Shown here: piece by piece, positions 4,494 through 26,520 of the stretch
Numbering within the stretch: the first letter of the stretch is position 1
Layout of the letters: each line of letters opens with the position of its first letter
Origin: Cyanobacterium stanieri LEGE 03274
GTDB taxonomy: Bacteria; Cyanobacteriota; Cyanobacteriia; Cyanobacteriales; Cyanobacteriaceae
Length of the DNA: 64,000 nt
Direction: 5' to 3'
Assembly (NCBI RefSeq): GCF_015207825.1
Contig: NZ_JADEWC010000004.1
Coordinates: 1-64,000, forward strand
Program-made: the position numbers and the translations under genes
Notes under the pieces: model-generated
What the model was told of the DNA's origin: nothing
What the model saw: only the letters and a program-made list of their open reading frames with translations
The model's database searches: none

Positions 4494-4540
4494 ATAAGAA
4501 AGCCCCCTTACCATCAACCCGATAACTTATAAAGTGTTAA
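4494..4540 (+). promoter_or_regulatory. Possible diverged palindromic leader element
   Basis: TAAGAAAGCCCCCTTA, then AACTTATAAAGTGTTAAG, in front of the ATG at 4558 resembles the island's palindrome-plus-box layout, but the right arm is truncated. It precedes a gene whose N-terminus is paralogous to that at 10804, and 10804 has a clear copy of the element. Confidence 0.35.
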
Positions 4541-4557
4541 GTAATAGGGTAAAGATT

Positions 4558-5265
4558 ATGAAAACTCAAACTTTCATTGGTGCAATTTCTGGTTTATTAG
4601 TTGCTGGTTTAGGAGTCGCTAGAGGAGATGTTGCTAATTTTGTCGGTGGTGGTTTACTAATCTCTAATACTATCGCAATCACTGGTAAAAAAGATCCTGA
4701 AAATGTTCAACCTTCCCCCGCACCTACCGTTAATCCTCAACCTGTTACCCGTGTTTATATTGATGGCGCCAATACTTTAGGTTCTATTAATCTTTTAAAA
4801 TTTGATATTGACTTTAACGCCTTTGCTGATCATATTGCTAACGGTGAAGACAATGTAATTTTTAACTACTATTATGCCGTCCTTGAAAGTCCTAATCGTA
4901 AACAAAATGGCTTTATTAAATATCTTGAAAATAATGGTTATAATGTAGTTCAATCCCTCAAAAAACAACTCCCTGAAGGCAATCATAAAAACAAAGGTGA
5001 TGATGTTCAAATAGCCACAGATATTGCCATTGATGCTAACGAAAATGATCATATTGTTCTAGTTTCTGGCGATGGTGATTTTACTTACTCCCTAGAAAAA
5101 GTTAAAGCCAAAGGTTGTCACGTCACCGTTATTTCTACTTCTGAATGTCTTAGTAAACAATTAAAAAGTGTTGCTGATAAATTTATTGATTTAGCCGAAA
5201 TTAAACCCGATATTCAACGTTATACTAAACCTCGTCAATCTAGCCCACAACCTCAATTAGTTTAA
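4558..5265 (+). CDS. Membrane-anchored NYN (LabA/DUF88-type) RNase-like protein
   Basis: Start ATG 4558 (MKTQTFIGAISG); the in-frame upstream ATG-like start at 4534 is not needed. Residues 5-45 form a Gly-rich hydrophobic hairpin, so the protein is probably membrane-anchored. A Pro-rich linker follows (around 50-70), then a NYN/PIN-like domain with acidic motifs VYIDGAN, TDIAIDA and VSGDGDF, the expected metal-binding Asp residues of this RNase fold. The N-terminal anchor is clearly related to that of the protein at 10804, which lacks the NYN domain. A second, soluble NYN gene heads the Ubl operon at 17641. The substrate is unknown; RNA cleavage is inferred from the family. Confidence 0.85.
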   Translation: MKTQTFIGAISGLLVAGLGVARGDVANFVGGGLLISNTIAITGKKDPENVQPSPAPTVNPQPVTRVYIDGANTLGSINLLKFDIDFNAFADHIANGEDNVIFNYYYAVLESPNRKQNGFIKYLENNGYNVVQSLKKQLPEGNHKNKGDDVQIATDIAIDANENDHIVLVSGDGDFTYSLEKVKAKGCHVTVISTSECLSKQLKSVADKFIDLAEIKPDIQRYTKPRQSSPQPQLV

Positions 5266-6183: not shown

Positions 6184-6508
6184 CCTTACCCATGGGGTTA
6201 CATGGGATTAGTTGGAAACCTCAAGTGCAACGGTGGCAGTCTTTATAACGCCAAAGACCTTACCCATGGGGTTACATGGGATTAGTTGGAAACCTTTGAA
6301 GAATCTTTATGATCTGAATACGCTTGTGAATCACCTTACCCATGGGGTTACATGGGATTAGTTGGAAACACTCTGATACCTACAGAGCCACTACTAATTG
6401 CACCTTACCCATGGGGTTACATGGGATTAGTTGGAAACTTGGATAATTTCGCGTACATTCATTTTCTTTACCCCTTACCCATGGGGTTACATGGGATTAG
6501 TTGGAAAC
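6184..6508 (+). CRISPR. CRISPR array 2: five 36-nt repeats, four spacers
   Basis: Repeats lie at 6184, 6258, 6334, 6403 and 6473 (each 36 nt); spacers are 38, 40, 33 and 34 nt. All five repeats begin CCTTACCC instead of the CCCTACCC of arrays 1, 3 and 4, so this array also has a private variant, fixed across all its units. The trailer from 6509 (ACCTCCTTTAC, then TTTTGGGGGTG) matches the trailer of the other arrays. Confidence 0.97.
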
Positions 6509-6777
6509 ACCTCCTTTACAATTTAAGTTTTGGGGGTGTTTTCTGTGGTGTGTTGTTTGGGAATAATAATTAATGGAGAATAAATAATTGATAATGGCGA
6601 TTTCTGCCTTTTTTATGTTTGTAGTATGCTCAAATCTTTGATATTTATAATTAGTGATTTAGTCAACACAACCTAATTAATTATTTTTTATCAAGTCTTA
6701 AATGTAGGGAAAAATTAACCTTTGCCCCGCTTAGGAAGATACAATAAATTATTAAGACTACTAAAAATATTTGCTTT

Positions 6778-8125: not shown

Positions 8126-9442
8126 ATGAATGACTATACCAATTTTGAAGAAAAAGGTTATCAGATAGTCGAAAAGATAACTGATAATATTCAAGGGGGC
8201 AGAGTCACCTATAAAGCCGTTAAGATTGATACTCAAATCCCTGTGATTATCAAACAATTCCGCTTTGCTAATAGTAGTAATTGGGATAGTTTTAAGGAAA
8301 TAGAAAGAGAAATCGATGTGCTGAGGGGGCTAAATCATCGAGGTATTCCTCAATATTTAGATAAAATTGATTCTGGTGAAGGTTTATGTTTGGTGCAAGA
8401 GTACAAAAATGCAGAACCTTTGTCCAAGTTACGCAGTTTTACCCCAGAGGATATTAAACATATCATCACTCAGATATTAGAAATCTTGGTATATTTACAA
8501 GAAAGAATCCCGTCTATTATTCACCGTGATTTGAAACCCGAAAATATCCTTGTGGATGATGATTTAAATGCCTACGTCATCGACTTTGGATTAGCCAGAA
8601 TTGGTAACGCTACCATGGCTGTAAGTACCATGCAGGGGGGAACGTTTGGATTTATGCCCCCTGAGCAGTTGCATAACCAAAAATTAACCGAAGCGTCTGA
8701 TTTATATGGTTTGGGGGCAACTATTATTTGCTTGATTACCCAGACGAAATCTCAGGATATTGGTAGTTTAGTTAATTTTGCCACTAATCGCATTAATTTT
8801 AAGGATAAGGCTTCTCGTTATAGTTTTAAGTTTATCCAATGGCTCGAAAAAATGGTAGAGCCTGATCCTAGTTCTCGTTTTGCTAATGCCCAATTGGCTT
8901 TGGAGGCTTTTAAACCTCTTTATGTGGTAAGGGTGCCAGAAATGCGTATCTCTTCTAAGGTTTTTGAATATGAGGCTCAAAAGTTGGGGGAAAAAGTCCA
9001 GTTTACTGTGGAGTTAAATAATTCTGTACCAGATACTGAGTTACAGGGTAGTTTCTCTATGGTAGATCATCCGGGCGATCGCCTTTCATCCCCCAAACAA
9101 ATCACCGCATCAAATCCGCAAAATGCCCATAGTTGGATTAGTGTTAGTGAACCAGTATTTAAAGGGAACAAAATAAAATGTTTAGTCACCACAGATACCA
9201 GAGATTTAAGGGCAGGACAACTATATCAAAGGAAAATACAACTTATTTCCAATGCTTCGGAAGAACCCTATATTATTCCTATCAATATAAAAACTGCACC
9301 CATCCCCGTTGAAAATAAATCTATTCCCTATTTTTGGCTGTGTATGCTATTCGCTGCTTCCCTATTTTTACCGCTTCAATTAGTTTTGATAGAGGAAGTA
9401 TTTACAATCGTAGGAAATAGGATCGAGTCTATTTGGCAATAA
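8126..9442 (+). CDS. Ser/Thr protein kinase, membrane-anchored (Pkn2/Hanks type)
   Basis: The 438-aa protein has an N-terminal kinase domain (about 8-265) with the invariant Lys in VIIKQF, catalytic loop HRDLKPEN, DFGLAR and an APE-like MPPEQL. The Gly-rich loop is degenerate (NIQGG). A beta-rich region follows (about 280-390), and a single membrane helix near the C-terminus (IPYFWLCMLFAASLFLPLQL). The C-terminal region is probably a sensory or scaffold domain on the cytosolic side. The next gene, 39 bases on, encodes a small membrane protein and may be co-transcribed. The substrate is unknown. Confidence 0.93.
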   Translation: MNDYTNFEEKGYQIVEKITDNIQGGRVTYKAVKIDTQIPVIIKQFRFANSSNWDSFKEIEREIDVLRGLNHRGIPQYLDKIDSGEGLCLVQEYKNAEPLSKLRSFTPEDIKHIITQILEILVYLQERIPSIIHRDLKPENILVDDDLNAYVIDFGLARIGNATMAVSTMQGGTFGFMPPEQLHNQKLTEASDLYGLGATIICLITQTKSQDIGSLVNFATNRINFKDKASRYSFKFIQWLEKMVEPDPSSRFANAQLALEAFKPLYVVRVPEMRISSKVFEYEAQKLGEKVQFTVELNNSVPDTELQGSFSMVDHPGDRLSSPKQITASNPQNAHSWISVSEPVFKGNKIKCLVTTDTRDLRAGQLYQRKIQLISNASEEPYIIPINIKTAPIPVENKSIPYFWLCMLFAASLFLPLQLVLIEEVFTIVGNRIESIWQ

Positions 9443-11516: not shown

Positions 11517-11789
11517 TTAGACGATATAAGACTTTGGAGGTGGCTGGGGTGGTTGACTACCGATGGTTAAAATTTTTGAGGTGCCATGGCGAGAAATCCA
11601 ATAAAATCTTACATTGTCTTCTGCTGGTTTTACTTTTTTTTCAATTTTTATATATAATTCTTTGGTTTCTGCTAGGGTTAAAAAACATTCAAATACAGAA
11701 AACTGGACTCGATTACCATACCCTTCTAAAAATTTTGATAAAGAATTTCGTCTTTTATTATCGGGAATATCGTAAACAATTACTATCAT
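11517..11789 (-). CDS. cas2: CRISPR adaptation nuclease-fold protein Cas2
   Basis: The 90-aa protein begins MIVIVYDIPDNKRRNSLSKF with the ferredoxin-like fold and conserved first-strand Asp typical of Cas2, and ends with a Pro-rich tail (SQPPQPPPKSYIV). ATG 11789 is chosen over TTG 11801. It follows the RT-cas1 stop by 8 bases on the same strand, so the two are co-transcribed. Cas2 dimers bridge Cas1 dimers in the integrase that inserts new spacers. A MITE sits directly beyond its stop. Confidence 0.95.
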   Translation of the reverse strand: MIVIVYDIPDNKRRNSLSKFLEGYGNRVQFSVFECFLTLAETKELYIKIEKKVKPAEDNVRFYWISRHGTSKILTIGSQPPQPPPKSYIV

Positions 11790-11797
11790 TTTTATTA

Positions 11798-13843
11798 TCA
11801 AATTCTCTCAAAAGATTTATACTTTTCTTTCTCTAATAAACTATTTTTATAAGATCTAATTTGTAATTGAATTATTTGACGGTAAGATATGGGCGATCGC
11901 ACCCTATAATCAGAAACTAATTCATTCATGCGATTTTCAAAATGATTAAGAAAAACTTTCCTTTTTTGAGCAGATAAATAAACCCCTTGAGTATCAGATT
12001 GTACCTCAAAATCATCAGGGCTAAAAATACCCTTGTTAACCATTTTTATCACAATCGTATCAACAATTACCGAGCGAAACTCCTCCATCAAATCAAAAGC
12101 GAGATAAGATTTTTTTCTTTCCCCATAATGTAAATTACCAAAGTAAGGAGACAAACCTTCTCCAATTATTAAAGACAACACATTATTAAATAATAAAGTA
12201 TAACCAAAACTTAACAAAGAATTGATAGGATCTCTTGGCGGTTGACGATTACGCAGATTAAAAGTAAAATTTTCATTAGTAATCAACGTCCCCAAACCAG
12301 AAAAATAACGAGACGTTCCGATGCCTTCATAACCTCTTAATTGATCTATATTCTCCACTAAATATAATGATTTTAAATCAGCATTAATACCTGCGATCGC
12401 CTCTTGAACAACATCTTTTTTCTGCCTCCTATTCAACCGTAACAATAACTGCTTAGAATTTTTCAACTTCCCCGCCACAATCTCCCTCGCAACATCAAAT
12501 TGAAAAGACGAACATTTATGGCGTTCAATTTGCAATAATTGTAAACTCAAATTAACCGAATCCTCATTCCACAAATGACCCCGATATAAACCCCTTTGAC
12601 TAGCATAAACAATGGAAATATTAGCCTCCAAACAAGCATGAATTACCTGAGTAGTTAGCTGTATATTGCCAAAAACAATTATCCTGTCAATCTCCCTTAT
12701 CGGTATTTCCAAAGATGGAGTTTTATCCACATAAATAATAAATCTAAAATGCTCCTTAAAAACCGATGAACCTTGTTCCAATAAATATAAAGTAGCCATT
12801 TCCCCATTCCATATATTTCTTTTTTGGTTACGATTTTGACCAACCTTTAAACCATTTTCTTCCCCATTACCCACAGGAATATTCTCAAAACTACTCCCAT
12901 TACCACCCATCAAACCATCAAAAGATGAAGAATTAAACCCTACACTATTATCTAAATGAAGTTTTTTTTTCTTACTCTTAACAGAATCAAGGGGAAAAAT
13001 TGCCTCCCCCAAAAAACCATGTCCTAAAAAACGAAATCCCACATCAAAATTAGTAATTTGTGTTTTAGTCTGATGAAGTTTTAAACCCAGCAAATCAAGA
13101 TTTTGCCTTACCTCCGAAAAAGATGCCATCACCCTTTCCCGAGACAAAGATAACACCAAAAAATCATCCGCATAACGTACCAACTTCACATCAGAAGCCG
13201 AAATAACCTTATCAAATTCATTCAAATATATATTCGCCAACAAAGGAGATATGACAGCACCCTGAGAAACCCCTTTTTCAGTCATTATCAGCCCCTGTTT
13301 ACCAACACACCCCACACAAAGCCACCCTTTAATCAAACACAAAATACCAGGAATATCAATCCAATTTCTTACCACTCCCAATAAAATTTGGTGATCAATA
13401 TTATCAAAATATTTCACAATATCAGCATTCAAAACCCACTGATAACCCAAATCTCTCCAGTGTGCCACCTGTTTCACCGCATCCAAATAAGAAATATTCG
13501 GACGATAAGCAAAACTAGCATCGCTAAAATCTTTTTCAATTATAGGACTCAAAATATTTAACAATGCCTGTTGTACAATTCTATCTCTGACGGTGGGTAT
13601 TTTTAACTCTCGCCAACTCTCATCATTTTTAGGAATCAAAATTTGTAAATAGGGTTGGGGTTGATAAGTGTTATTCGCCACCTCATTTCTCAGTTGATGA
13701 AGATTCGTTTCTTCCCGACTAGTAAATTTATCAATCGTTTCTCCATCAACCCCAGCACATCCCTTATTTTTTGCCACTTTCTGCCAAGCGGTTTCAAAAT
13801 TATTAAAGTCCAAAAATTCATCAACAATATCTATATCCGACAT
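11798..13843 (-). CDS. cas1: Reverse transcriptase-Cas1 fusion (spacer acquisition integrase)
   Basis: The protein is 681 aa from ATG 13843 (an in-frame TTG at 13849 is possible). The N-terminal RT domain (about 15-285) resembles group II intron RTs, with DIVKYFDN (motif A), SQGAVISPLLANIYL and the active-site YADD near residue 227. A Gly/Asn/Ser-rich linker (about 290-345) leads to Cas1 (about 350-640) with the metal ligands E in RGYEGIG, H in GNLHYG and the acidic pair in AFDLMEEF. RT-Cas1 with Cas2 can acquire spacers from RNA in type III systems studied elsewhere. No Cas6 domain is fused, and no effector gene is visible in the window. It is transcribed divergently from array 3. Confidence 0.97.
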   Translation of the reverse strand: MSDIDIVDEFLDFNNFETAWQKVAKNKGCAGVDGETIDKFTSREETNLHQLRNEVANNTYQPQPYLQILIPKNDESWRELKIPTVRDRIVQQALLNILSPIIEKDFSDASFAYRPNISYLDAVKQVAHWRDLGYQWVLNADIVKYFDNIDHQILLGVVRNWIDIPGILCLIKGWLCVGCVGKQGLIMTEKGVSQGAVISPLLANIYLNEFDKVISASDVKLVRYADDFLVLSLSRERVMASFSEVRQNLDLLGLKLHQTKTQITNFDVGFRFLGHGFLGEAIFPLDSVKSKKKKLHLDNSVGFNSSSFDGLMGGNGSSFENIPVGNGEENGLKVGQNRNQKRNIWNGEMATLYLLEQGSSVFKEHFRFIIYVDKTPSLEIPIREIDRIIVFGNIQLTTQVIHACLEANISIVYASQRGLYRGHLWNEDSVNLSLQLLQIERHKCSSFQFDVAREIVAGKLKNSKQLLLRLNRRQKKDVVQEAIAGINADLKSLYLVENIDQLRGYEGIGTSRYFSGLGTLITNENFTFNLRNRQPPRDPINSLLSFGYTLLFNNVLSLIIGEGLSPYFGNLHYGERKKSYLAFDLMEEFRSVIVDTIVIKMVNKGIFSPDDFEVQSDTQGVYLSAQKRKVFLNHFENRMNELVSDYRVRSPISYRQIIQLQIRSYKNSLLEKEKYKSFERI

Positions 13844-13859
13844 TTCCAAGATTTAATGT

Positions 13860-14048
13860 TTTTTTGTTCCTCAATTACAACAACCCATAGGAAAAGGGGT
13901 TTTCTTAAAAATATTTGTTTTCCATTAGATTTCACTTATTTTGATAACAAAGACTGGTTTTATGGCTTCCAAAATATCCCCAAAGCCTTATCATGACTAT
14001 TTTACGCTGTCTCTTAATAGTTCTTATTGCCATGGAATAAAACATAAA
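13860..14048. repeat. Duplicated divergent control block, copy A (RT-cas1 / array 3)
   Basis: About 190 bp between the RT-cas1 start and leader 3 recur with only scattered differences at 18232-18425, between the NYN gene start and leader 4. Together with the leaders this makes about 370 bp of paired homology. Shared landmarks include ATTTGTTTTCCATTAGATTT and AACAAAGACTGGTTTTATGG. It probably holds the back-to-back promoters. Confidence 0.85.
13870..13907 (-). promoter_or_regulatory. Palindromic leader element upstream of RT-cas1
   Basis: Read on the minus strand: AAGAAAACCCCTTTTCCT, then ATGGGTTGTTGTAATTGAG, 26 bases before the RT-cas1 ATG. A nearly identical copy precedes the NYN-Ubl operon (18246-18283). 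The GTAATTG core is shared with the boxes of the other island genes. Confidence 0.55.
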
Positions 14049-14229
14049 ATCTACACAATAACCAAAAACCCCCAAATGCCCATTATTTCGTATTATTGTG
14101 TCGATGCCTTGCACTGTATGAGTTTCAGACCTATTTTTTGTTGCGCGATTTAGATTTTATGTGTTATATTTATTATTGTGTAGATTCAAAGGCTAAAACT
14201 CTTGTAGTGTAATGCCTCTGAATCGAAGA
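14049..14229 (+). promoter_or_regulatory. CRISPR leader 3
   Basis: A 181-bp leader with ATCTACACAATAACC at the start, TTATTGTGTCGATGCC in the middle, ATTGTGTAGATTC as the inverted copy and ATGCCTCTGAATCGAAGAC at the array. It lies beside the divergent RT-cas1 gene and serves the largest array, so it is the best candidate for the active integration site. Confidence 0.88.
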
Positions 14230-14783
14230 CCCTACCCATGGGGTTACATGGGATTAGTTGGAAACCACTGTTTACTCCACGCAAAGCTGATGTTGTATTA
14301 ATTCTTCCCTACCCATGGGGTTACATGGGATTAGTTGGAAACGAAACAGGATGAATAAAATTATTAAAATCAGTAAACCCCTACCCATGGGGTTACATGG
14401 GATTAGTTGGAAACAATACAACACCACCAACAGATCCCCAGTCTTCCAGAGTATTCCCTACCCATGGGGTTACATGGGATTAGTTGGAAACTTTTCCGTC
14501 TGCTGTTGTTACTGTACATTTCATTCCCTACCCATGGGGTTACATGGGATTAGTTGGAAACCATCGGTTATCGAGTATTTTTTTAAGTGCTTCTCTTCCC
14601 TACCCATGGGGTTACATGGGATTAGTTGGAAACGCGACTCCGCTCAAAGCAACAACTAACCCACCAATGATACCCCTACCCATGGGGTTACATGGGATTA
14701 GTTGGAAACTTTCAAGTACTTCAACTATACTTTGGAATTCTCTCCAACCCTACCCATGGGGTTACATGGGATTAGTTAGAAAC
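14230..14783 (+). CRISPR. CRISPR array 3: eight 36-nt repeats, seven spacers
   Basis: Repeats start at 14230, 14307, 14379, 14456, 14526, 14598, 14674 and 14748; spacers are 41, 36, 41, 34, 36, 40 and 38 nt. The repeat begins CCCTACCCATGG and ends TTAGTTGGAAAC. The last repeat has one change (TTAGTTAGAAAC), as expected at the leader-distal end, which confirms the orientation. The trailer from 14784 is the shared ACCTCCTTAAC...TTTTGGGGGT. Confidence 0.98.
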
Positions 14784-14918
14784 ACCTCCTTAACCATTTA
14801 GGTTTTGGGGGTTTTTCTCCTGTTGTTGTGATAGATAATTAAATACAAAAAAAACCCCCCGACTCTTTGAGTAAGGAGAACCTAAAATGATATAGCTAAA
14901 AATATTTATGTATCGATG

Positions 14919-16538: not shown

Positions 16539-17021
16539 TTAATCAGTGTTAATGGCGTGTTTGGCGGTAATATATAGTGTGGCTAAATTATGTCCTTTTT
16601 CGGGATGATGACTAGGGCGCCAAGCATTCATCCATCTTTCTTGATGAAAACCTCCCCCTAAACCGACACAATACCAATACCATCCTTCTTCACTGAGAAA
16701 AGGCGCTCCATAATAGCTTTGTTGGGTAAAATGATGATCTCCTTCGCCGATGGTTTTCCATGGATAGTTTAAGTAACAACCAATGGGGGGAATTTTGGGA
16801 TATTCTGGAGGTAATAAAAAGAGAATATCTGTGTTAGAAACTTTAAATTTGTTGGATGATAGGGGCATTCCTTTTACTAATACGGCGGTGTATGATTTAT
16901 GATCAATTTGTTTTCTGCCGACTATGATATTTTTAGCTACTTTTTCGAGTATTTGTAGTTCGGAGTTAATTCTTGGATGGGGTTGAAAGGGGGAGTTGTT
17001 AGAGATAAGTGTAATAGTCAT
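16539..17021 (-). CDS. E2-like ubiquitin-conjugating protein (Prok-E2 family)
   Basis: The 160-aa protein shows the E2/UBC pattern: strand LLPPEYPKIPPIGCYL (Pro-rich, about 69-84), His residues at 96-97, then GWYWYC with candidate catalytic Cys118, followed by W130 and WRP (134-136), matching the Cys...W-x-P order of classical E2 enzymes. Bacterial E2-like proteins of this kind occur in operons with multi-ubiquitin-type proteins and JAB-E1 fusions. It would receive the modifier from E1 as a thioester. It is the fourth gene of the NYN-Ubl operon; no separate E3 is visible. Confidence 0.85.
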   Translation of the reverse strand: MTITLISNNSPFQPHPRINSELQILEKVAKNIIVGRKQIDHKSYTAVLVKGMPLSSNKFKVSNTDILFLLPPEYPKIPPIGCYLNYPWKTIGEGDHHFTQQSYYGAPFLSEEGWYWYCVGLGGGFHQERWMNAWRPSHHPEKGHNLATLYITAKHAINTD

Positions 17022-17046: not shown

Positions 17047-17250
17047 TTACTTAAATCCTTTAACAATTTTAGGAACTGTCCAAACCTTAGAACCTTCCTT
17101 GAGGGCTTCATTTTCCTTGAGGGGTTTAGTACCTTTAAAACCTTCTTCCATAACATCATCATTACCAATTTCTGGTAATTTTTTTCTCAGTTCTTCTACA
17201 GTAGCACCATTAGGTAAATCCACTAATTTTCCATTAACAATTGCTCTCAT
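17047..17250 (-). CDS. Small ubiquitin-like (beta-grasp) protein, 67 aa
   Basis: ATG 17250 has a strong AAGGAG upstream. The sequence has the beta-grasp rhythm: a strand AIVNGKLVDL, then helix ATVEELRKKL, and later strands ending VWTVPKIVKG. It lies directly before the E2-like and JAB-E1 genes, so it is the probable modifier. It ends VKGFK without the usual Gly-Gly; bacterial multi-ubiquitin domains also lack it, but conjugation chemistry is then unclear. The N-terminus (NGKL) resembles that of the next gene upstream. Confidence 0.75.
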   Translation of the reverse strand: MRAIVNGKLVDLPNGATVEELRKKLPEIGNDDVMEEGFKGTKPLKENEALKEGSKVWTVPKIVKGFK

Positions 17251-17265
17251 AATTTATTTATCTCC

Positions 17266-17628
17266 TTAATTATTAACTACAGGATTGGTAATTTCTATGG
17301 TGGGATTAGCTTCCCATTGATGATTCCTTTTTTGCGAGGATATTAAGATTGCTCCGATAACTAAAAAACCCAATATTACGGTTACATTAACTGTCAAAAA
17401 TTGACGATTAATACTACTTCTTAACAGTTTTATATCTTTTTGAATTGTGCTTAGGTTACTTGTTTCTAGGTGATGAATTTTTTTCTGAAGGGATTCTATG
17501 TGATGTTGTTGCTGATTAAGGATATGTTCTAAGTTTTCTGACTTAACAAGAATATCACTGCATTTTTGGTCTAATTTTCTGGAGTCTTGGGAGGGTTCGA
17601 TAATTAATTTACCGTTAATAGTTTGCAT
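17266..17628 (-). CDS. Coiled-coil membrane protein of the Ubl operon, 120 aa
   Basis: ATG 17628 with AGGGGGAAG just upstream. After a short INGKLIIEP start that echoes the Ubl protein's NGKLVDL, a coiled coil runs over about 20-75. One membrane helix follows (LTVNVTVILGFLVIGAILI, about 78-96), and then a short tail. It lies 15 bases upstream of the Ubl gene and 12 bases after the NYN gene, so it is clearly part of the operon. It may tether the conjugation system to a membrane or be its target. No family is recognised. Confidence 0.75.
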   Translation of the reverse strand: MQTINGKLIIEPSQDSRKLDQKCSDILVKSENLEHILNQQQHHIESLQKKIHHLETSNLSTIQKDIKLLRSSINRQFLTVNVTVILGFLVIGAILISSQKRNHQWEANPTIEITNPVVNN

Positions 17629-17640
17629 AATTTCTTCCCC

Positions 17641-18213
17641 CTAATTAAAAATATTTGTGTTGCCGATGGGGTGATATGTTTGATGATTATTTTGGGCATT
17701 AAATTGGTCAAAAACAGGAATTAAGTCAATAAAACTGTTGGCAGAGTTTTTCAACTCATTCCCCAAAGTTTGCCCAATGGCGGCTACTTCTACCCTAATT
17801 CCTCGTCTTCTCAATTTTTCTACCAAGTAGGCAAAGTCGGAATCCCCTGTGAGTAGTACTACTATATCGGGGCGAACTTCGAGGGCAAATTCTAGGGCAT
17901 CAATTGCCATGACAACATCTATATTGGTTTCAAATTCGTTGCCTTTGGCTTTTCCTTCCTTGGTAACTACGACAAAGCCGTTACTTTTTGCCCAATAAAC
18001 CAGTTTTTCTTTACTTTTTCGTTGTTCTTCAAAACGCTCTCTAGCTGGGGGTAAACCAACATAAATTACCATTTCGACTAATTCTCTTCCTTCTTCTGGG
18101 TTTGCTAGATAGTCTTTTATTTTTTGCCAGTCTAGTTTTCGATTAAAACTTTGAGCAGCGATGGTGATGTTATCGCTATCGGCAAAAATCATGACTTTTC
18201 TTGTGGTTTTCAT
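17641..18213 (-). CDS. NYN-domain (LabA/DUF88) RNase-like protein, first gene of the Ubl operon
   Basis: The 190-aa protein from ATG 18213 (TTG 18216 is adjacent) has the NYN acidic motifs FADSDN (residues 10-15), NIDVVMAIDA and LLTGDSDFAYLV, plus the typical late helix NELKNSANSFIDL. The PIN-like fold uses these Asp residues for metal-dependent RNA cleavage; LabA relatives also act in regulation. It has no membrane anchor, unlike the NYN protein at 4558. As promoter-proximal gene, it shares the duplicated control block with RT-cas1 and is divergent to array 4, which makes it a candidate effector or crRNA-processing nuclease (inference). Confidence 0.92.
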   Translation of the reverse strand: MKTTRKVMIFADSDNITIAAQSFNRKLDWQKIKDYLANPEEGRELVEMVIYVGLPPARERFEEQRKSKEKLVYWAKSNGFVVVTKEGKAKGNEFETNIDVVMAIDALEFALEVRPDIVVLLTGDSDFAYLVEKLRRRGIRVEVAAIGQTLGNELKNSANSFIDLIPVFDQFNAQNNHQTYHPIGNTNIFN

Positions 18214-18231
18214 CAATTCATAAATTTATTT

Positions 18232-18425
18232 ATTGATTTTTTGTTTCTCAATTACAACAACCCATAGGAAAAGGGGTTTTCCTAAAAATATTTGTTTTCC
18301 ATTAGATTTCACTTGTTTTGATAACAAAGACTGGTTTTATGGTTTTCAAAATATCCCTAAAGCCTTATCAAGAGTGCTTTACAGTGTCTCTTAATAGTTA
18401 TTATTGCTATGGAGCAAAACATAAA
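18232..18425. repeat. Duplicated divergent control block, copy B (NYN-Ubl operon / array 4)
   Basis: Near-identical to 13860-14048. Differences include TTTTCCT for TTTTCTT, which here makes the palindrome perfect. The block joins the NYN start to leader 4 in the same orientation as copy A joins RT-cas1 to leader 3, so a whole [gene - control block - leader - array] unit was duplicated with a different gene at one end. Confidence 0.85.
18246..18283 (-). promoter_or_regulatory. Palindromic leader element upstream of the NYN-Ubl operon
   Basis: A perfect inverted repeat AGGAAAA-GGGG-TTTTCCT (18266-18283) is followed, on the minus strand, by ATGGGTTGTTGTAATTGAG. It matches the RT-cas1 copy at 13870 with a compensating base change. 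Confidence 0.6.
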
Positions 18426-18607
18426 ATCTACACAATAACGAAAAACCCCCAAATGCCCATTATTTCATCTTATTGTGTCGATGCCTTGCCCTGTATAGGT
18501 TTCAGGTTCTTATTTTTGTTGTGCAATTTTGATTTTTTGTGTTATTATTACTATTGTGTAGATTTAAAGGCTAAAACTCTTGTAGTGTAATGCCTCTGAA
18601 TCGAAGA
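18426..18607 (+). promoter_or_regulatory. CRISPR leader 4
   Basis: A 182-bp leader, closest to leaders 2 and 3, with ATCTACACAATAACG, TTATTGTGTCGATGCC, ATTGTGTAGATTT and ATGCCTCTGAATCGAAGAC. It is intact although its array is minimal. Confidence 0.85.
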
Positions 18608-18716
18608 CCCTACCCATGGGGTTACATGGGATTAGTTGGAAACCATCTGCGGGAGAAAACGTAATCAAAGCTTCGATATCCCCTACCCATGGGGTTACAT
18701 GGGATTAGTTGGAAAC
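18608..18716 (+). CRISPR. CRISPR array 4: two repeats, one spacer
   Basis: Repeats at 18608-18643 and 18681-18716 are identical to the array 3 consensus; the spacer is 37 nt. The trailer from 18717 (ATCTCTTTAATC, then TTTTGGGGGTG) is the most diverged of the four. About 80 bp further on, ACAAAAAAACTCCCC...AAGGAGA resembles the region after array 3, so the duplication covers both flanks. This is either a newly seeded or a collapsed array. Confidence 0.93.
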
Positions 18717-18918
18717 ATCTCTTTAATCATTTAGATTTTGGGGGTGTTTTCTGACTCTGTAGCGAATGATAATAAGAAACACAAAAAAACTCCCCTTTCA
18801 AGGTTAAGGAGAGATCAAAATTAATAATAAAATAAGTTAATGTGATTATCGTAGATGATCATATTGTGGCACCTTAAGCAACCTTAAAGAAAATCAACTG
18901 ATAGGGGAATAAGAAAAA

Positions 18919-21216: not shown

Positions 21217-22428
21217 TTATACCTCCTTATCACGGGCGAGTAATTGATGATAAATTTCCTCTAACTCAATGTCACGTTGACGGGCAAAATCCTCATCACG
21301 GGATTTTAAAACATCTTCACGATTAGCGTATTTGATAGTAATAAAAACAGCAGCGGCACTACTGATAACAGAAAGAGAGAAGAAAAATAAACCCAAACCT
21401 AAATCAGCAAACTCGCCATTAAGTAATTTTGAGAAGAAACTACGGGTTGCCATGGAAACTTGAGTTACCGCAGATCTTAAATTACCCTCTTCATCAAAAT
21501 GAAATTCATATAGTTCAGGAAATTCGTCTCTTAAAAAAGCTAAATCATTACCTCTTTGCGCACGAATGCTTAATTTTTGATCTAAAGTTTCTTTGGCATC
21601 TTCATACACCGCATAATGTTGTTGTTCTAAAATCTTAGCTTCAATACATAAAGGAATTTTTTGACCCTTAGGTGCATTACTCCAATCCTTATTGCGCTCA
21701 CTCCATAAACCATGTACATCTTGATAGAGTGCGTCATAATTTCTATCTCCTTCTGTCATTTTCTGTAAGTCCTGTGTTCCTTGTTGACATTTTTGTTCAG
21801 CTTCTTCATACTTAGAAGTATCTGAATTGTTGAGATCTTCAACCTTGACACGTTGTTCGGCAACTAAATAATCAACGGTTTGCTGTTGGATGCCAGTGGG
21901 ATTATTAAGTAATTCAACACCAATACCAGAAACAAGGGTTTTAAGAATACTAATACTAACCATGCCAAAGATACCAATATTTGCCCAACCACGATTTTTT
22001 TTGGTACGATTAGCCACGGTACTAGCAGTTATATTGGAAAAAGAAAGAACACCAACATCAATTAATAATCCTAAAATAACGGCGGGAAAATTACCTAAAA
22101 ATTTGAAACAGAAAAAGTAAAAGGGTGCATTAGAAACAAAGTCAATTATATTCGCAAAACTGTTGGTATTAGCGGTAATCTTGGCGTGTTTTTTTAGCTC
22201 ATCAGTGACATAGGCATTACCATAATAGTCTTTAGGATTGGCGATTAAAACAGAGCTTATTTTTTCGGCTAATGATGGATCTTGGGGAGTTAATTTTTTG
22301 CCTTCTTGGGTGAGTTCTAATACTTCAGCACAACTGGGATCTTGTTCAACAAATTTAATGAGAAGTTCAGGTTTAGATAATTCGGTGTAGTTGTTTTCGG
22401 TGTGTTGCTGTTGTTGTTCTTGTTTCAT
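21217..22428 (-). CDS. Multi-span membrane protein with large soluble loop, 403 aa
   Basis: ATG 22428 is preferred to the in-frame TTG 22434. The N-terminus is Gln-rich (QEQQQQH). Hydrophobic segments lie near residues 100-135 (PFYFFCFKFLGNFPAVILGL) and 150-175. A coiled, charged domain of about 170 residues follows, then two helices near 345-375 (DLGLGLFFFSLSVISSAAAV) and a charged tail. This resembles coiled-coil membrane proteins of the DUF4407 type, but I cannot confirm the family. A strong palindromic leader element lies about 185 bp upstream. Confidence 0.7.
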   Translation of the reverse strand: MKQEQQQQHTENNYTELSKPELLIKFVEQDPSCAEVLELTQEGKKLTPQDPSLAEKISSVLIANPKDYYGNAYVTDELKKHAKITANTNSFANIIDFVSNAPFYFFCFKFLGNFPAVILGLLIDVGVLSFSNITASTVANRTKKNRGWANIGIFGMVSISILKTLVSGIGVELLNNPTGIQQQTVDYLVAEQRVKVEDLNNSDTSKYEEAEQKCQQGTQDLQKMTEGDRNYDALYQDVHGLWSERNKDWSNAPKGQKIPLCIEAKILEQQHYAVYEDAKETLDQKLSIRAQRGNDLAFLRDEFPELYEFHFDEEGNLRSAVTQVSMATRSFFSKLLNGEFADLGLGLFFFSLSVISSAAAVFITIKYANREDVLKSRDEDFARQRDIELEEIYHQLLARDKEV

Positions 22429-22611
22429 TATCAATTATTCCTGCTTTTTATCAACAAATACAGTTAAACATTGCTGAGGAATGGGTATCTTCCTATGGCT
22501 TGGGAAAAGAAATGAGGAGGGTTTTCCTGTAAGTATTAAGCCCCTTCCGAGGGGAAGGCAACTTAATTTTTATTGATTAATCAAGCATATCTTATGACCT
22601 CTTTTCGTTGG

Positions 22612-24143: not shown

Positions 24144-24827
24144 CTATCTTTTTATTTTGCCACTTTTTCTCTCGGAAAGTGACAAAAGAATGACATGGGG
24201 ATGGTAACTAAAAATATGGCTGTCTCCTGATGGTAAATTCCTCTCCAATTTTGATACTGTTCCCGAACGAATTACCACTGCATCAATATGAAATTTTTCT
24301 TTCAGTTCCTTTTGCCATTGGTCACATAATTGAGGGGGACATAGTACCCCAATTCTTTTAATTTCTCTTCTATCTAATAACTCCCGCATAATTAAGCCCG
24401 TTTCAATGGTTTTCCCGACCCTCACATCATCAGAAATTAATAAACGAATAGTATTTTGTCTTAATGCCATTAATAACGGTACTAACTGATAAGGACGAGG
24501 ACGGACGGATAAACGTCCTAGACAACGAAATGGTCCAGCTCCACTTCTCAAACTCAATAGGGAGGCATCTAAGAGTAATTTTGCTGATTCATGATTTTGT
24601 AATGTTTCAGGGGATGGAGGGGGAAATATGGCAGGTTCAACAGCTTCCCCTAAGCCAGTAAAAATTCCACACACTTGTTCTTCCTTGCCTGATAAGGGGC
24701 GTAAACGAATGAGATTAGGTAAATCTGAAGGTAACACTACCCATTGTCGTTGACGACAGGATACGATCGCCCCAACTTGAGGAGATGAATTGGTTTGAGT
24801 TTGTACCGTACCTGTTACTGATCCCAT
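24144..24827 (-). pseudogene. SNF2/DEAD-type helicase, 5' fragment (DISARM-like DrmD type)
   Basis: The 227-aa frame looks like the first quarter of a large SNF2 helicase. It has an N-terminal Val/Pro-rich region, RPYQLVPLLMAL (Q motif), ISDDVRVGKTIETGLIM as Walker A (the usual Gly-Leu before GKT is Arg-Val here), and CPPQLCDQWQKEL as motif Ia. It then breaks off after SYHPHVILLSL into a Lys-rich tail with no DEAH motif. Large helicases of this type occur in DISARM and related defence loci, but no partner is present. Truncated and probably inactive. Confidence 0.7.
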
Positions 24828-24854: not shown

Positions 24855-26520
24855 CTAATATAAAATGTTCTCTACTCTTTTTATGCAATTATTTTTTAAT
24901 CCTGCTATTCGCATGATTTTCCATGATTTTACTTCCTCCCCCTGTTGTTCCAAAAATTTGATCGCCCATTCTATCCTTCTATCCTGAAACATTTCCACTG
25001 ACTCGACAGTTTCTTGTAGATAGGTTTTTGTCAGGGGTAATTTATCCAATTTATGCTCTAAAAGTGCCTTTAATCCCGTCATAATACCCACTTTTCTCAG
25101 GGTAACTCTTTGGGGTTTTTCCTCTTGCAAAATATCTTGAACTGCCTTCTCTACCTGAATTTTGATATTTTGATCTCTTTTACCCCAATCCACTCTCTTA
25201 TTTACTGATACAGACGGTTTTTGTAAAAAGGGTGAATTATTATTTAACCAAGGGCGATCGCCCCTATACAATCTTCCATATAGGGCAGGAGATATATTTC
25301 TCAGTTGAGTTTTTGTTGCGTCAGGATACTGTCTTTGTAATTCTAACCAATCTTGTCTATTTTGTGCCTTATTATCAGCTTGTTGAGCCTCATTGACGTG
25401 GCAAAAGTTCGTGGTTTCTGATTGCCATGAAGCATTTAAACCAAACTTATTCACATAGCGATTAATAGTCCTAGTGGTTACCTTTAATTCTCTAGCAACT
25501 GCTCTTAATCCTAAATTTTTATTCTCTACTAAATCCTGTAACTTTTGATGCCACCTATCCCCATAAGTGATGATTTGATTGGGCCTATAACCATCAGATT
25601 GCTCTGATTTCGATACCGTTCGACTGTAAACCATTCCACAACTGCAAGTAAATGTTCCTAGAGGTTTTTTGTTTTCTAGGCAATGGCTCAACTTAACATC
25701 TTCAATCACAGGTTGTAAGTAATGATCAACTGCACCATTAAAACAAATCCAAGGAGGATTCCCAAAGGGTTTATATTTCGATGATGTTCGTTCAAAAAAT
25801 TCTCGTACCGAACCACAAAGAAACCTCATCATCAATATATGACGTGTGGGGTGAAAGGATTTGCGGTGTTTTCTAACTATACTGAATAGCCAATTACTTT
25901 GATTATCGAGACTAATACAAGAGTCTAAATAACTCAAAATATCCTGTCCATAGCAAAACAAAAATTCATCAAACAATTTCTTCTGATTAACTCTTTTGGA
26001 TGCTGTGGCAATATTTCTTGACATCAACAAATTCATATATTGCTGATAATACCAGTTCAAAGGACGGGAAATTTGAGGATTATCTAACAGCCATTGAACA
26101 TCACGAGCTAAGTTAAATAGTATGGTCTAATTTTGTGGGGAGTATTTTTTTACTACGTTGTCAGAAATACAATTCTTACGATTCGCTACCTGATAATGAT
26201 GTTGATTCAACTGTTGAAAAAGTAGGGTGCTATTTTGTAATGAGATATTATGGGTTGGACAAACTAACACACAAGATAGTTGATGAATGCGATGCCAATA
26301 AAATTCCCCGTATTTTTCCTCATCTTCCTGTAAACATTGAGGACAAAAACAGAAATATTTAGGTTGGGAAATATTACTTGCCGAAAGTCCGATACGGGTA
26401 TGAATATTTCCTCCGTAATTGGATTTCATTGATTCTTTGATTTGTGTAGCCCTTTCAGGGGGGATAAAAGGGGCATAAAAGTTATAAAGAGTATTCCTGT
26501 ATTTTTGGTAATTAAATTCT
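24855..26520 (-). pseudogene. tniQ: TnsD/TniQ-family target-selection protein, decayed
   Basis: A single frame runs from about 26520 to 24855 but is broken by TAG at 26127-26129, with another TGA at about 26518-26520 marking the lost N-terminus. The upstream part has YAPFIPPERA, NYGGNIHTRIGLSAS and the zinc-knuckle CPQCLQEDEEKYGEFYWHR and CPTHN of TnsD/TniQ. The downstream ~400 residues include CSCG and a helix-turn-helix-like GLRAVARELKVTTRTINRYV. TnsD proteins direct Tn7-like transposons to attachment sites. No tnsA, tnsB or tnsC lies nearby, so this is a relic. Confidence 0.85.

Follow-up and report, generated by a model that had tools for sequence, protein, structure and literature searches.

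Among described systems, the Bub operons stand closest to the locus reported here, as their JAB peptidase also lies N-terminal to the E1 domain; many of them carry CapW, CapH+CapP or CapK+CapS regulators according to the accessible part of one account (PMC13373217), and no CRISPR link is described for Bub in the text available. A second point of reference is the type 6e operon of Iyer et al. 2006, presented in an accessible portion of that paper (PMC1779556) as a polyUbl, an inactive E2, a JAB-E1 and a Zn protein, with examples on Synechocystis pSYSX and in Anabaena; for pSYSX, the JAB domain is placed at the N-terminus of the E1 in the excerpted text of a further paper (PMC4963859). The type III accessory NYN/CorA genes, catalogued by PADLOC and described for Bacteroides fragilis (PMC11346440), offer a third comparison, and the words ubiquitin and Ubl are absent from the available text of the B. 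fragilis paper. Ubiquitin, ThiF and JAB are likewise absent from the main text of the 2025 CRISPR classification, as far as that text is accessible (PMC12669027), and the retrievable portions of two papers on CRISPR reverse transcriptases mention neither ThiF nor NYN, their figure legends leaving ancillary genes uncoloured or in a single colour (PMC5513706, PMC5541045). No account of the gene cassette described below was found in the papers searched, and an earlier mention of its CRISPR association may exist.

The window, meaning the whole 64,000-nucleotide stretch that was analysed (Cyanobacterium stanieri LEGE 03274, contig NZ_JADEWC010000004.1, positions 1 to 64,000), contains a five-gene cassette on the minus strand in the order NYN, CCTM, Ubl, E2 and JAB-E1, where Ubl stands for ubiquitin-like protein and CCTM is the name used here for a coiled-coil single-pass membrane protein. 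The intergenic gaps from NYN to JAB-E1 measure 12, 15, 25 and 189 bases, and the cassette is flanked by two CRISPR arrays with the same repeat, whose leader-like stretches are 91% identical (Table 1). The initial annotation had given two of these reading frames and their ends correctly, a Ubl that finishes in VKGFK without Gly-Gly and a CCTM that starts INGKLIIE; the arrays on both sides of the operon were absent from it. In our reading, the five genes are on balance probably a complete Ubl-conjugation cassette that serves as an accessory module of RT-Cas1 type III-B CRISPR-Cas in cyanobacteria. The NYN and CCTM families are already in PADLOC. The Ubl and E2 matched no PADLOC or NCBIfam family up to E 1, and both are annotated 'hypothetical protein' in Microcystis and Nostoc plasmid records.

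Table 1. Cassette genes, their sequence elements and the adjoining CRISPR features, in window coordinates.
Feature	Position	Strand	Basis
NYN (LabA-like) nuclease, first cassette gene	17641..18216	-	Pfam NYN E 4.8e-28; PADLOC NYN
CCTM, 120 aa, starts MQTINGKLIIE; PADLOC 'CorA-like' PDLC01177	17266..17628	-	ORF, alignment, profiles
CCTM NGKL, residues 5-8	17605..17616	-	NGK invariant 36/36
CCTM predicted membrane helix, residues 78-96	17341..17397	-	Hydropathy 2.57
Pro-Ubl, 67 aa, ends ...PKIVKGFK; conserved end PKIVKG (Gly65) + FK	17047..17250	-	
Ubl NGKL, residues 6-9, predicted beta1-beta2 turn	17224..17235	-	22/22 rows; low-confidence model
FK-tail codons past Gly65, predicted to be trimmed	17050..17055	-	Tail absent 23/37, unconserved 14/37
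E2-like conjugating enzyme, 160 aa; candidate catalytic Cys118 at 16668-16670	16539..17021	-	Prok-E2_E
JAB peptidase-E1-like ThiF fusion, 476 aa	14919..16349	-	Pfam ThiF, JAB motif, BubCD match
RT-Cas1 fusion	11798..13849	-	Pfam RVT_1 + Cas_Cas1
Cas2	11517..11801	-	PADLOC Cas2
CRISPR array upstream of cassette, two repeats; leader-like repeat 18228-18505	18608..18736	n/a	
CRISPR array downstream of cassette, eight repeats; leader-like repeat 13851-14128	14230..14803	n/a	

The E2 search recovered 22 cyanobacterial loci, with matches in 7 of 386 sampled cyanobacterial genomes (the source genome included) and also on plasmids from Microcystis, Nostoc and an Aphanizomenonaceae strain; one more match was distant. 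As far as the contigs extend, the genes keep their order in all loci but L022 and that of genome G213. All counted loci are cyanobacterial and related by descent, and they are not independent because cyanobacteria alone are represented. L022 is a broken locus with a partial E2, a split E1 and no Ubl found; it was left out of the Ubl, CCTM and CRISPR-linkage counts and stands within the 38 loci of the JAB and E2 counts. Upstream sequence for the CCTM is lacking in L008 and L014, and the L008 Ubl is cut at its start. The alignments hold 17 of 23 E2s (A1), 19 of 24 CCTMs (A2) and 22 of 26 Ubls (A3). Twelve CCTMs were added later, two from plasmid annotation and ten from an HMM and motif scan. Among 25 order-level CCTM places, 12 have the same sequence as earlier loci, and 9 of the other 13 have the cassette. 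Neither a 566-aa frame in G138 nor the weak PDLC01177 matches in L100-L103, which come without a cassette or an NGK reading frame, were counted as CCTM.

The JAB-E1 places the cassette near Bub. Pfam ThiF matches it at residues 183-322 (E 1.1e-26), its JAB domain was assigned from the motif and the BubCD match, and its closest solved relative is Citrobacter BubCD, which phmmer aligns to query residues 24-398 across both domains (E 1e-12). The Citrobacter BubCD and BubB structures compared were 9ea4, 9ea5, 9eae and 9eav, and the likeness to Bub is one of sequence and model. An alignment of 22 proteins shows no variation at the JAB residues E28, H93, H95, S104 and D107, and 37 of the 38 loci have the motif, the contig of the other one being cut. 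Of the eukaryotic E1 structures, UBA5 is one of the nearest matches, equal to UBA1 at E about 1e-7, and by analogy with UBA5 we take Cys393 to be the E1 active-site position. A thioester at this candidate residue is doubtful, because the cysteine is kept in 35 of 37 proteins (Ser replaces it in L020 and Ala in L090) and the BubCD alignment shows Ala at the same position.

An E2 fold is likely for the E2-like protein, which scores 25.9 bits against Pfam Prok-E2_E, just over the cut-off of 25, and has no detectable sequence similarity to any E2 in the PDB, BubB included. Its AlphaFold model is weak (pLDDT 63, pTM 0.68), and pLDDT falls below 50 at residues 85-126, the stretch that surrounds the candidate active site. 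All 50 of 50 VIA rows for the model are titled E2, UEV, RWD or FANCL; Citrobacter BubB (9eae_C) is the second row (Z 8.0, rmsd 3.9, 112 aligned), with a score tied with those of TSG101 UEV rows, and the best Foldseek match reaches E 0.059, with nothing at 0.001 or better. The candidate catalytic Cys118, placed by sequence pattern, occurs in all 37 loci where the site was found among the 38, the remaining one being a cut contig.

With type 6e, the cassette shares the JAB domain at the E1 N-terminus. However, type 6e has a Multi_ubiq-type Ubl of one to three repeats where the cassette has a single 67-aa Ubl, an E2-like domain without the catalytic Cys where Cys118 is invariant here, and a Zn-finger protein or toxin-antitoxin genes in place of the NYN, CCTM and CRISPR context; Pfam found no Zn-finger-like metal-binding protein among the five cassette genes. 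The Multi_ubiq affiliation raised in the initial annotation fell away, as the Ubl gave no match to PF14452 up to E 10; a Multi_ubiq search of its own genome also gave none and carries little weight, since a control search likewise matched nowhere. The cassette is filed apart, as a Bub-related Ubl cassette apparently adopted by cyanobacterial RT-Cas1 type III-B CRISPR loci, because its JAB-E1 lies near Bub and its form resembles that of type 6e, yet with a single Ubl that has no Multi_ubiq match and with an E2 Cys. The window E2 (query 34-136) has a 28% match to an E2-like gene on plasmid pKAZ5. As a separate observation, pKAZ5 carries two adjacent hypothetical genes (L040 4791-6739), the first of which appears by eye to be a Ubl domain fused to a Cys-less E2 and the second a JAB-E1; together they resemble a type 6e operon, here carried by a conjugative plasmid.

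In keeping with its first designation as a Ubl, the 67-aa protein probably belongs to the ThiS/ubiquitin-like modifiers. Its best Pfam match is the ThiS-like family PF14453 (E 1.4e-4, 22.4 bits, below the cut-off of 26), and its weak AlphaFold model (pLDDT 56, pTM 0.35) has the order strand-strand-helix-strand-strand, its first two strands covering residues 2-5 and 8-11. Fold matches to this model are mostly ubiquitin, ThiS and other beta-grasp proteins, none of them significant (Z at most 2.5); ThiS ranks first in Foldseek, also without significance, with no match at E 0.001 or better. Sequence comparison with the PDB gave no relevant match, BubA included, and 49 pattern matches in viral contigs held no relative. 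A possible 40-residue N-terminal extension, starting MAMRA..., was seen in the Ubl genes of L082, L085 and L086.

At the C-terminal end of the Ubl, PK[IV][IV]KG, with its conserved Gly, is present in all 37 proteins compared; in 23 of them the Gly is the last residue, and the other 14 extend beyond it by 1-9 residues, which differ between loci except for RG in two Okeania loci. Because the Gly boundary is universal, the tail is missing from 23 proteins and it is unconserved in the other 14, 'VKGFK' is best read as the end of a modifier with one Gly and a tail that can be removed, and the lack of Gly-Gly is no sign of degeneration. The JAB peptidase fused to the E1 would be the obvious candidate for trimming this tail. 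The modifier UFM1 also has a single C-terminal Gly, exposed by removal of two residues, and this feature, together with UBA5, likens the UFM1/UBA5/UFC1 system to the cassette; that system has separate proteases and is not known to have a JAB-E1 fusion or a CRISPR connection.

The likeness between the N-terminus of the CCTM and that of the Ubl, which the initial annotation had pointed out, is borne out across the family. NGK[LM] occurs in all 24 CCTM relatives chosen without regard to the motif, as the longest reading frame between NYN and Ubl. In alignment A2, whose members are 15-26% identical to the window CCTM, N5, G6 and K7 are the sole invariant columns and L8 is nearly invariant. With the 12 further proteins added, mostly selected by HMM and motif, NGK is found in 36 of 36, at a mean pairwise identity of 32% (16 representatives lie under 40%); the CCTM thus changes faster than the Ubl, whose mean pairwise identity is 84% and whose N6, G7, K8 and L9 are invariant in all 22 aligned proteins. 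In contrast, NGK[LM] appears within the first 70 residues of none of 557 other reading frames of at least 100 aa in the loci; among 572 frames of at least 80 aa it appears in two, both of which are the CCTM gene read from a longer start. The other two genome matches to the NGKL DNA pattern lie at the start of no listed reading frame of at least 60 aa. The codons differ, with 9 distinct 12-mers among 24 CCTM genes and 14 among 25 Ubl genes, placing the constraint on the protein, and a nucleotide-level cause of NGKL was ruled out by this variety. As far as sequence can tell, the NGKL common to the CCTM and Ubl is more than chance.

How far this likeness extends is more limited. A profile-profile comparison of CCTM and Ubl aligns 27 columns that include the motif (E 3.4e-4, at a probability of only 38%), and single-sequence BLASTP was not significant (E 0.12). 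The CCTM had been proposed to be a degenerate Ubl fused to a coiled coil and a membrane anchor; the shared motif, coiled coil and helix stand, and a whole degenerate Ubl was rejected, as the similarity covers a stretch about the size of the first hairpin and ends after about 27 columns. Past the N-terminal segment, the CCTM has a coiled coil (recognized by eye and from weak coiled-coil matches), one predicted membrane helix and a short tail. If a mean hydropathy above 1.6 over the best 19 residues is taken to mark a membrane segment, all 24 first-set proteins have one, as do 11 of the 12 added; the twelfth (L056) reaches 1.55. In 28 of 36 proteins the fourth residue before the Asn is Met, and the protein therefore probably starts as M-x-T-(hydrophobic)-N-G-K-L. 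Like the type III accessory NYN/CorA genes, the cassette pairs an NYN protein with a membrane protein beside III-B, and PDLC01177 'CorA-like' matches all 19 CCTMs in A2. However, CorA has two membrane helices whereas the CCTM has a single best hydrophobic segment, after which the chain is short and mostly polar, and the window CCTM has no Pfam CorA match; a CorA channel was set aside as a candidate on these grounds, the PADLOC label being its sole link.

These features suggest a working for the cassette in which the Ubl would be made as a precursor, with the JAB domain removing the residues that follow Gly65. The E1 part of this JAB-E1 protein would adenylate the Ubl Gly and pass the Ubl to Cys118 of the E2, which would attach it to a target lysine, and the JAB domain could remove it again. 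The N-terminus of the CCTM, cytosolic in this model, would copy the first Ubl hairpin with its NGKL and make the CCTM the cassette's own partner, either as an acceptor through the NGKL lysine or as a dock through which the machinery reaches the membrane. The data do not decide between an acceptor lysine and a dock, and one locus counts against both: in G213 (L056 2690-6026), NYN and a CCTM with NGKL are followed by Cas10, with Ubl, E2 and JAB-E1 absent there, and a search of the whole G213 genome found no E2. The G213 Cas10 is 51% identical to that of L004. Because the L056 CCTM is 70% identical to the L094 CCTM, the loss of Ubl, E2 and E1 in G213 is possibly recent. The suggestion in the initial annotation that the CCTM may be a target is retained.

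The foremost alternative, which we regard as tentative, is that the CCTM NGKL imitates the Ubl hairpin without covalent linkage, binding the surface of E1, E2, JAB or NYN by which the first Ubl hairpin is normally read, such that the CCTM would recruit or inhibit the machinery at the membrane while itself remaining unmodified. The whole NGK turn is invariant, beyond the lysine alone, and therefore suits a recognized shape better than a bare acceptor lysine; the profile similarity spans the hairpin region. Against this, the CCTM N-terminal segment alone may not fold, and NGKL persists in G213 without a Ubl, E2 or E1. The same G213 locus speaks for coincidence, in which the CCTM would use its own NGKL otherwise, for example to bind the Cmr complex; Asn-Gly turns are common in beta hairpins, and in ThiS-like proteins among them. 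We nevertheless consider coincidence rather unlikely, as two neighbouring genes each conserve the tetramer at almost identical places, it is missing from the first 70 residues of the 557 other reading frames, and it has a chance expectation of about 3e-4 for 12 N-terminal sites in a naive, post-hoc estimate.

The linkage of the cassette to type III-B CRISPR-Cas through arrays, cas1/cas2 and cas10/cmr is regular. An array, RT-Cas1, Cas2 or Cas10 is present at 32 of 37 loci, and of the five loci without such signs four lie on contigs of at most 5 kb and the fifth is the chromosomal locus L033. Where at least 8 kb is available on both sides (n=15), an array is found at 14 loci, Cas2 at 13, RT-Cas1 at 12 and a Cas10 similar to the query Cas10s at 7; arrays were counted with a simple detector, and repeats with all-distinct spacers were then confirmed at 14 of the 15. 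RT-Cas1 of at least 47% identity is encoded by 5 of 7 cassette genomes versus 5 of 379 others (Fisher p 7e-8, a value that ignores kinship and rests on an identity limit set after the list was seen), and any RT-Cas1 match at E 1e-80 by 6 of 7 versus 14 of 379. On one strand of Microcystis plasmid p1, RT, Cas1, Cas2, Cas1, NYN, CCTM, Ubl, E2 and ThiF run into a CRISPR protein, Cas10 and Cmr genes, and on a Nostoc plasmid Cmr genes lie downstream of the cassette on the opposite strand. A second Cas1, besides the RT-linked one, was noted between the array and NYN on Microcystis p1 (L038 11463-12467).

Cas10 lies downstream of the cassette in L001, L004, L012, L018, L021 and L032; the adjacent effectors are type III-B (Cmr) in all of these except L021, whose Cas10 is nearer Cas10d models. 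Of 10 downstream proteins scanned, five were not Cas10 (those of L009, L033 and L035 and one each in L004 and L012), and in L004 and L012 Cas10 is found further on. The scanned protein of L035 is a kinase, and the other four of these five gave no hit; that of L018 is a CARF protein. In the source genome, Cas10 genes are on other contigs, one of them (C14) beside the same repeat as the window arrays.

It is against this regularity that a mere defence-island neighbour, with no functional tie to CRISPR, has to be weighed. Defence genes generally cluster; across the 20 kb of L033 no cas gene was detected and there are only two repeats, and G213 has a CRISPR locus without the full cassette. The array in 14 of 15 long-flank loci, the same-strand run into cas10/cmr in Microcystis with Cas10 downstream in six other loci, and the co-occurrence with RT-Cas1 all speak for a tie, however, and make simple neighbourhood rather unlikely. 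The two-copy repeat of L033 (15114-15207) has 22 bases in common with the L035 array, and the locus is perhaps a decayed CRISPR locus. Finally, it is very unlikely that the Ubl is a ThiS-like sulfur carrier whose E1 activates sulfur for small-molecule or RNA thiolation: the ThiS-like Pfam and Foldseek matches that would favour it are below cut-off and not significant, respectively, a dedicated E2 with an invariant Cys and a JAB fused to the E1 are unexpected in simple sulfur transfer, in the cassette Pfam finds no sulfurtransferase, rhodanese or metabolic enzyme, and the conserved end is Lys-Gly, not Gly-Gly.

Several further features of the window were recorded. Four arrays have nearly the same repeat (1867-2147, 6184-6528, 14230-14803 and 18608-18736), and four similar stretches upstream of arrays (D2) are 68-96% identical to the reference copy, which suggests that units of leader and array were duplicated. 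Besides the cassette NYN, a different NYN-domain protein is encoded at 4534-5265 (+); its relatives in L009, L012 and L017 are found upstream of the cassette NYN, read from the other strand. The frame at 8126-9442 (+) is Ser/Thr kinase-like, with matches to the defence models mads and PD-T4-6; L035 has a similar kinase downstream of the cassette. The protein of 21217-22434 (-) matches PADLOC C3a124, of unknown function (E 1.9e-93), and a 32% identical relative is found near a Cas10 gene of the same genome (L041). The minus-strand frames 24144-24827 and 24855-26060 pair a short fragment similar to the DpdE N-terminus (profile 7-201 of 985) with a TnsD-like protein; this may be what is left of a defence gene at the end of a transposon.

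Taken as a CRISPR accessory module, the conjugation cassette may act at the membrane, where modification would switch a dormancy or membrane effector alongside the NYN RNase. In its most specific form, which we judge unlikely as it stands, a III-B complex sensing foreign RNA would lead to conjugation of the Ubl via the NGKL lysine of both CCTM and Ubl, building membrane-anchored chains. In type II CBASS, as the accessible literature describes it, conjugation acts on the cyclase of the system itself, and similarly the present cassette carries its own candidate target, a CCTM with the invariant motif of the modifier. The shared motif makes the choice of target directly testable by one lysine change. 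If the specific form is true, a CRISPR response would be executed by ubiquitin-like modification at an acceptor site copied from the modifier. Even as an accessory module in the general sense, the cassette would bring two principles of immunity together at a single locus, RNA-guided type III CRISPR and the modification of proteins by ubiquitin-like tags.
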